Shown here one piece after another: positions 38,590-39,018 of a stretch of DNA of 64,000 nucleotides. Every line of letters starts with the position of its first letter. Position 1 is the stretch's first letter. This DNA comes from Alphaproteobacteria bacterium (GTDB lineage: Bacteria; Pseudomonadota; Alphaproteobacteria; UBA9219; RFNS01): positions 1 to 64,000 of the forward strand of contig JBBCGY010000002.1 of the NCBI GenBank assembly GCA_037200005.1. The letters run 5' to 3'. Below the pieces are notes generated by a model. That model worked only from the letters and a program-made list of their open reading frames with translations, made no database searches and was not told where the DNA came from. The position numbers and the translations under genes are program-made.

Positions 38590-38666
38590 GCGCCCGTAGC
38601 TCAACTGGATAGAGCATCAGACTACGAATCTGGAGGTTAGGAGTTCGAATCTCTTCGGGCGCGCCA
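38590..38666 (+). tRNA. tRNA-Arg (ACG)
   Basis: A complete 77-nt cloverleaf: acceptor GCGCCCG paired with CGGGCGC, D arm GCTC...GAGC, anticodon stem CAGA...TCTG with anticodon ACG at 38624-38626, T arm with GTTCGAATC, discriminator G, and an encoded CCA. The A34 is normally edited to inosine to read CGU, CGC and CGA. Confidence 0.97.
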
Positions 38667-38667
38667 T

Positions 38668-38770
38668 CCTGCTCCGCTAAAGCTACGCAGGACAAGCCCT
38701 CCGCCTTCGGAGGGCTTGTCCTGCGTAAAATAAAGCAGCAGGATGCCCTGCGAAGCTTTAGCGAAGCAGG
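38668..38770 (+). repeat. Nested palindromic element adjacent to tRNA-Arg
   Basis: Outer arms 38668-38691 and 38747-38770 are 24-bp inverted repeats with 22 matches. Within them, 38684-38703 and 38708-38727 form a perfect 20-bp stem with a CCTT loop. The right outer arm also folds on itself (CCCTGC...GCAGGG). It begins 2 bp after the tRNA and ends 6 bp before the GIY-YIG ATG. No T-run follows, so it is more than a terminator. The compact nested form resembles REP/REPIN or RPE-type dispersed repeats; only one copy is recognisable in this window. Confidence 0.75.
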
Positions 38771-38775
38771 GCTGT

Positions 38776-39018
38776 ATGCATTACGTCTATCTTCTTCAAA
38801 GCATGGCAAACCCTGACCAAAGATATTCAGGTGTTACTATTGATTTGAAGACAAGGTTCAAGGAGCATAACAGCGGTAAATCTATTCACACCAATAAATT
38901 TAAACCATGGAAGCTTGTTGCCTATATCGCTTTTGAAGATAAGGACAAGGCGATAGCCTTCGAGAAATATGTCAAGCATGGATCGGGACATGCTTTTGCA
39001 AAAAGACATTTGTGGTAA
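38776..39018 (+). CDS. GIY-YIG nuclease superfamily small protein
   Basis: An 80-residue protein with the GIY-YIG core only. YVYLLQS and RYSGVTIDLKTRFKEHNSGK hold the two Tyr motifs and the catalytic Arg, then FEDKDKAIAFEKYVKHGSG holds the metal-binding Glu. Single-domain members are abundant and of uncertain cellular role; some relatives are mobile. The ATG at 38776 has AGGG 6 nt upstream; the frame continues upstream into the palindromic element, where a second ATG lies. Its position right after a tRNA and a palindromic element suggests it may belong to a small mobile unit. Confidence 0.82.
   Translation: MHYVYLLQSMANPDQRYSGVTIDLKTRFKEHNSGKSIHTNKFKPWKLVAYIAFEDKDKAIAFEKYVKHGSGHAFAKRHLW

Follow-up and report, generated by a model that had tools for sequence, protein, structure and literature searches.

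A probable tRNA- and tmRNA-targeting mobile palindromic element with a single-domain GIY-YIG nuclease gene

Within the window, the 64,000-nucleotide stretch of alphaproteobacterial DNA analyzed here, 351 bp of palindromes and a small GIY-YIG gene follow tRNA-Arg(ACG), which raises the question of whether these parts form one unit and, if so, of what kind. In our reading, the 351 bp probably represent a single insertion of a mobile palindromic element directed at tRNA and tmRNA genes, with the nuclease as its presumed mobiliser. As judged from the loci compared below, the target site would usually lie directly 3′ of CCA, and autonomous copies would carry a single-domain GIY-YIG gene. A nested palindrome joined to a GIY-YIG gene after the tRNA had been proposed by the sequence-only reading. 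All of these parts are present (Table 1), at slightly different offsets: the outer repeat starts 1 nt after CCA, not 2, with 5 bp rather than 6 between its end and the ATG.

Table 1. Features of the tRNA-Arg locus, in window coordinates.
Feature	Position	Strand	Basis
tRNA-Arg(ACG), encoded CCA, target gene, intact	38590..38666	+	ARAGORN; Rfam tRNA 66.6 bits
Left outer arm CATCCTGC, starting with the CA of the tRNA CCA	38665..38672	+	sequence read
Hairpin H1, CCTGC-TCC-GCTAAAGC-TAC-GCAGG	38668..38691	+	sequence, inverted-repeat search
Perfect 20-bp hairpin, variable middle of the element	38684..38727	+	inverted repeat I2
Right outer arm GCAGGATG, ends in the family-common TG	38738..38745	+	sequence read; family comparison
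Hairpin H2, CCCTGC-GAA-GCTTTAGC-GAA-GCAGGG, inverted copy of H1	38746..38771	+	inverted repeat I1; swapped-arm control
GIY-YIG nuclease, 80 aa, single domain, subfamily with KxGSGHAFAKRHLW end	38776..39018	+	PF01541 6.6e-15

The outer inverted repeat (38668-38694 / 38744-38770, 27 nt, 89%) is more aptly described as a single imperfect hairpin present twice in inverted orientation, H1 and H2, each interrupted by internal loops of three bases (H1, TCC/TAC; H2, GAA/GAA). Between them lies the perfect 20-bp inverted repeat, with arms at 38684-38703 and 38708-38727, and the two outer arms are reverse complements of each other, forming an 8-bp repeat. The H1 layout recurs at about 85 other loci. The folding energy is 9.5 s.d. 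below that of dinucleotide shuffles, with 0 of 200 shuffles as low. The reading frame (MHYVYLLQ...HLW) has an in-frame ATG at 38743, from which an alternative product of 91 aa would start. No second copy of the whole unit was found in a search of the genome, and no direct repeat of the tRNA was found beside the unit in the window.

The GIY-YIG domain occupies residues 1-68 of the 80-residue protein, with no separate DNA-recognition domain. Residues Y5, Y17, G19, R27 and E63 are invariant in an alignment of 23 nuclease relatives. A profile search against the PDB gave UPF0213/SLX1-type matches over the GIY-YIG domain (1zg2, 3.8e-11; 7cq2, 2.1e-7), and by profile the closest proteins of known structure are UPF0213 (BH0048) and SLX1, a structure-specific DNA nuclease that cuts branched DNA. 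The window nuclease falls in no family of NCBIfam or PHROGs. Phage and plasmid collections hold no relative of it, and a phage- or plasmid-borne origin is therefore unsupported. The same genome contains other GIY-YIG genes, one at C2:70639 from a different clade and with other repeats, and two weaker ones at C2:525551 and C1:1683193.

A scan of GTDB with one genome per species yielded 68 loci encoding the nuclease. Further loci came from searches among relatives and across the class, in which 43 of 385 alphaproteobacterial genomes were positive, and a profile built from the 23 nuclease proteins collected 143 distinct loci. Among loci scoring at least 90 bits with at least 300 bp of upstream sequence, a tRNA or tmRNA gene on the same strand ended no more than 400 bp upstream in 63 of 82; one on the opposite strand was found in that interval in none of the 82. 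Loci of 60-90 bits had a same-strand upstream tRNA or tmRNA in 17 of 24 cases. None of the URI-like GIY-YIG loci (28-40 bits), used as a control of the same fold, had an upstream tRNA or tmRNA. The targets comprise tmRNA and 16 tRNA isotypes (Ser, Ala, Leu, Asp, Pro, Tyr, Val, His, Met, Gln, Gly, Glu, Arg, Lys, Trp and Thr), and the hosts belong to Pseudomonadota, Acidobacteriota, Verrucomicrobiota, Planctomycetota and many candidate phyla. In nearly all junctions the element starts 0 bp past CCA. The unit runs from H1 through a variable middle to H2 in inverted orientation and closes with a GIY-YIG gene of about 80 residues, transcribed in the direction of the tRNA. This anatomy resembles that of a REPIN. 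The earlier suggestion of a small mobile, REPIN-like unit with its own nuclease gene thus gains support, the layout of tRNA, palindromes and nuclease being found in dozens of genomes. Several units (L092, also L162; L113; L117) are placed between convergent tRNA genes. At L092 one palindrome family occurs at both tRNA ends, so that the nuclease gene is flanked by inverted palindromes.

The tRNA genes of the window's own genome were surveyed through tRNA matches and their fetched flanks, giving 43 tRNAs. A double-palindrome element abuts the CCA in 22 of these and falls into four sequence families; only the window's copy has a nuclease gene, and the other 21 are gene-less. All 18 genome-wide copies of families A (8) and B (10) lie directly 3′ of tRNAs, which shows gene-less copies confined to tRNA ends; an eleventh family-B match corresponds to H2 of a family-A copy. 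In G390, a complete genome, five such elements were counted among 47 tRNAs. The window's genome has only one nuclease of this subfamily, and it is linked to a palindrome unlike those of families A-C, and the nucleases that mobilised the A-C copies would thus now be absent. No nuclease matching families A, B or C was seen in this genome; family A is closely similar to a nuclease-linked palindrome family of g278, a distant, rhizobial-type genus with genomes mostly of 5-10 Mb. Assignment of g278 to Bradyrhizobium was rejected, as its identity to the Bradyrhizobium loci L127 and L119 is no more than 67-82%.

The occupancy of individual tRNA ends differs between relatives. Had the element been a single-copy feature kept with its tRNA while the nuclease was absent, a mobile unit would have been a poor description. 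Instead, the window's element occurs in none of the relatives' tRNA-Arg(ACG) genes with a readable flank, one of which (L383) carries a different palindrome family. At the tRNA-Ala(ggc) locus of g278, constant flanks enclose a type A nuclease (23), a type B nuclease (14) or a palindrome-only or remnant allele (6), along with tandem copies and internal deletions. Alleles here span 380-430 bp from CCA to the constant flank, and the GIY-YIG ORF is the sole gene of the unit. The type A allele L208 and the type B allele L218 have right flanks 99.4% identical over 500 bp and left flanks 96.6% identical over 324 bp; their nucleases agree at 41 of 83 aligned positions, about half. Such a type replacement between near-identical flanks indicates a recent exchange of elements, bounded exactly by CCA and the flank. 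Turnover at a tRNA-Leu(caa) locus is similar. At that locus in G452 (L423), an apparent transposase ORF of an insertion sequence follows the palindrome within the element. Among intact nuclease copies at the tRNA-Ala locus, pN/pS was 0.135 and 0.127, values of about 0.13 that show purifying selection on the nuclease gene; a stop codon breaks 3 of 21 type A copies. These observations support the view that a functional nuclease belongs to the mobile unit.

Exchange of this kind would also be produced by a stand-alone homing endonuclease gene that cleaves empty tRNA-end alleles and is copied into them by homologous repair, its palindromes being recognition or regulatory appendages. The GIY-YIG fold is in keeping with homing, which predicts just the allele replacement between homologous flanks seen at L208/L218. 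We nevertheless consider this explanation unlikely: 21 further, different tRNA genes of the same genome hold gene-less palindromes, homing through flank homology cannot move sequence between unrelated tRNA loci, and the nuclease has no additional target-recognition domain.

Direct repeats of tRNA sequence, 14-42 bp long, frame a few units, and most units, like that in the window, have none; among 3′-end loci, a downstream tRNA repeat was present in 5 of 87, one of the five inverted. L090 and L114 have a 21-bp direct repeat of the tRNA end, L104 has a 14-bp tRNA repeat two bases past the stop codon, and in L147 the direct repeat spans 38-42 bp of the tRNA 3′ half. In L111 and L140 it consists of 38 bp from the tRNA 5′ half as far as the anticodon loop. 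An intact tRNA is kept at each unit with tRNA-derived direct repeats. Five units (L111, L140, L147, L149 and L153) lie in or beside split tRNA copies, with a half-tRNA on one side and a full tRNA on the other.

Palindrome and nuclease appear to be inherited jointly. On the nuclease tree, which has few columns and many weak forks, palindrome type (the first six bases) requires 41 changes (shuffles: mean 62, minimum 57) and tRNA isotype 53 (mean 61.5, minimum 55). The smaller number for palindrome type therefore suggests that the palindrome stays with its nuclease and that the tRNA target switches often. The pairing of the outer arms was assessed with swapped-arm controls. At 45 of 87 loci the 8-nt arm had its complement downstream, compared with 87 of 796 when arms were swapped between loci, across 21 distinct arms; for the H2 stem, matches numbered 20 of 48 for own arms versus 34 of 372 in the control. 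Arm pairing is thus conserved despite differing arm sequences.

That palindrome type tracks the nuclease tree is hard to reconcile with a second alternative, in which the palindromes are host-owned structures at tRNA 3′ ends (terminators, or processing or anti-read-through hairpins) and the nuclease gene is an opportunistic neighbor. The hairpins do begin exactly at the mature tRNA end, and some palindromes 3′ of tRNAs elsewhere look terminator-like: at tRNA-Arg(ACG) in G003 and G013 (L366, L372), terminator-like hairpins start 0 bp after CCA, and these may represent either ordinary terminators or element families that have taken up a terminator. The idea that the window's own hairpin serves as the tRNA terminator found no support, because a terminator search of the locus detected no terminator-like hairpin with a T run on the + strand. 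Furthermore, elements are absent at 21 of the 43 tRNAs of the genome, their presence varies among relatives and some units are framed by tRNA repeats, all of which make host ownership very improbable. The least credible alternative, to which we attach hardly any probability, is an RNA-level element in which the protein works on tRNA precursors together with a structured trailer, DNA mobility being a by-product: the element is on the tRNA's strand in every case, so that co-transcription is probable, and its RNA fold is very stable, yet the closest solved relatives are SLX1, a DNA enzyme, and UPF0213, the tRNA alone reaches the Rfam gathering score in the window with nothing else over threshold, and duplications of tRNA halves are DNA events.

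For the mobile palindromic element, we propose the following route. The GIY-YIG nuclease, taken to cut DNA on the strength of its co-inheritance with the palindrome, the selection on it and its fold, would act as the mobiliser in the role that RAYT plays for REPINs. It would recognize the two palindromes once they pair into folded or cruciform DNA, and would nick the tRNA end or the anticodon loop, perhaps because the folded strand of a tRNA gene presents matching structures; both insertion sites, acceptor end and anticodon loop, mark prominent positions in the folded tRNA, and from this we take recognition of a folded strand as a working hypothesis. The break would be repaired with a copy of the element as template or donor, and gene-less copies would be mobilised in trans. 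The element could persist because one complete tRNA remains and it sits outside the mature tRNA. Against this reading, the type swaps could also stem from homologous recombination in the flanks that brings in foreign alleles, most 3′-end units are without a direct repeat, the A-C copies of the window's genome have no matching nuclease there, the nuclease tree is weakly resolved and the protein has no DNA-binding domain beyond GIY-YIG.

A second GIY-YIG clade may have a comparable partner. CGTC-tagged REPs are palindromic repeats, often arranged as head-to-head dimers, that are common in alphaproteobacteria and are reported to have no associated transposase gene (PMC3733652). In a URI-like clade, repeats resembling CGTC REPs were seen on both sides of the GIY-YIG gene at about 8 of 10 loci looked at, among them C2:70639-70860 in the same genome but outside the window (L021, L024) and L079, L080, L081, L082, L084, L085 and L087. 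The repeat flanking the C2:70639 gene occurs at about 20 dispersed places in that genome. The URI-like clade is a candidate transposase for the CGTC repeats. A broader reading, which we consider equally likely to hold or to fail, is that GIY-YIG constitutes a second, independent REPIN-like engine, one clade of which homes to tRNA and tmRNA genes, perhaps through the folded tRNA strand, in alphaproteobacteria, Acidobacteria, Verrucomicrobia, Planctomycetes and candidate-phyla bacteria, and a second of which drives the CGTC repeats. If the proposed element is what it seems, an autonomous mobile element of less than 400 bp, with one 80-residue nuclease, would be aimed at a highly conserved class of genes and would already have settled at half of this genome's tRNA 3′ ends. 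REP-type palindromes would gain a second kind of enzyme, tRNA 3′ flanks would become places to seek mobile DNA, a small nuclease whose target choice may be guided by structure would be at hand, and the mobiliser of the alphaproteobacterial CGTC repeats would become a testable question.

No description of such an element was found in the literature searched, a scope outside which preprints and most subscription journals fell. The family is apparently a large, undescribed kind of mobile element; given the partial coverage, it may have been described elsewhere before. By its sequence features, the element lacks at least one defining property each of REPIN/RAYT systems, homing endonucleases and integrative elements. 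Tyrosine-integrase elements at tRNA 3′ ends share the tRNA or tmRNA target and the intact tRNA, whereas the present units have no tyrosine or serine integrase and total 90-400 bp; tRNA-derived direct repeats, a feature of such elements, occur at some copies here and are missing at most. Group I introns in bacterial tRNA genes (PMC3984707) likewise target tRNA genes, resemble the few copies seen here at anticodon-loop sites and have GIY-YIG enzymes in some cases; here, by contrast, the main site is outside the tRNA, and the anticodon-loop units carry a duplicated tRNA half and involve no splicing. Stand-alone GIY-YIG homing endonucleases (I-TevI type, SegA-like) have the same catalytic fold and motifs and a site-linked spread, but the proteins described here are about 80 aa long without a separate DNA-binding domain, and gene-less copies occur at unrelated sites. 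SLX1 and UPF0213 (BH0048), closest by profile over the GIY-YIG domain, are not reported within mobile elements. CGTC REPs are also palindromic repeats of alphaproteobacteria but are dispersed, differ in sequence and, in the window's genome, flank another GIY-YIG gene; the CGTC tag and AT-starting 8-9 bp stem described for them (PMC3733652) do not occur in H1 or H2. REPIN/RAYT differs in its enzyme, a Y1 HUH transposase (RAYT) rather than a GIY-YIG protein (PF01541), in the GTAG tag, which is absent here, and in being high-copy and dispersed in extragenic DNA, as opposed to 8 and 10 copies per family, all at tRNA ends. It has in common with the present element a unit of two inverted imperfect hairpins (here H1 and H2), many gene-less copies, one linked nuclease gene and a palindrome type inherited with the enzyme.
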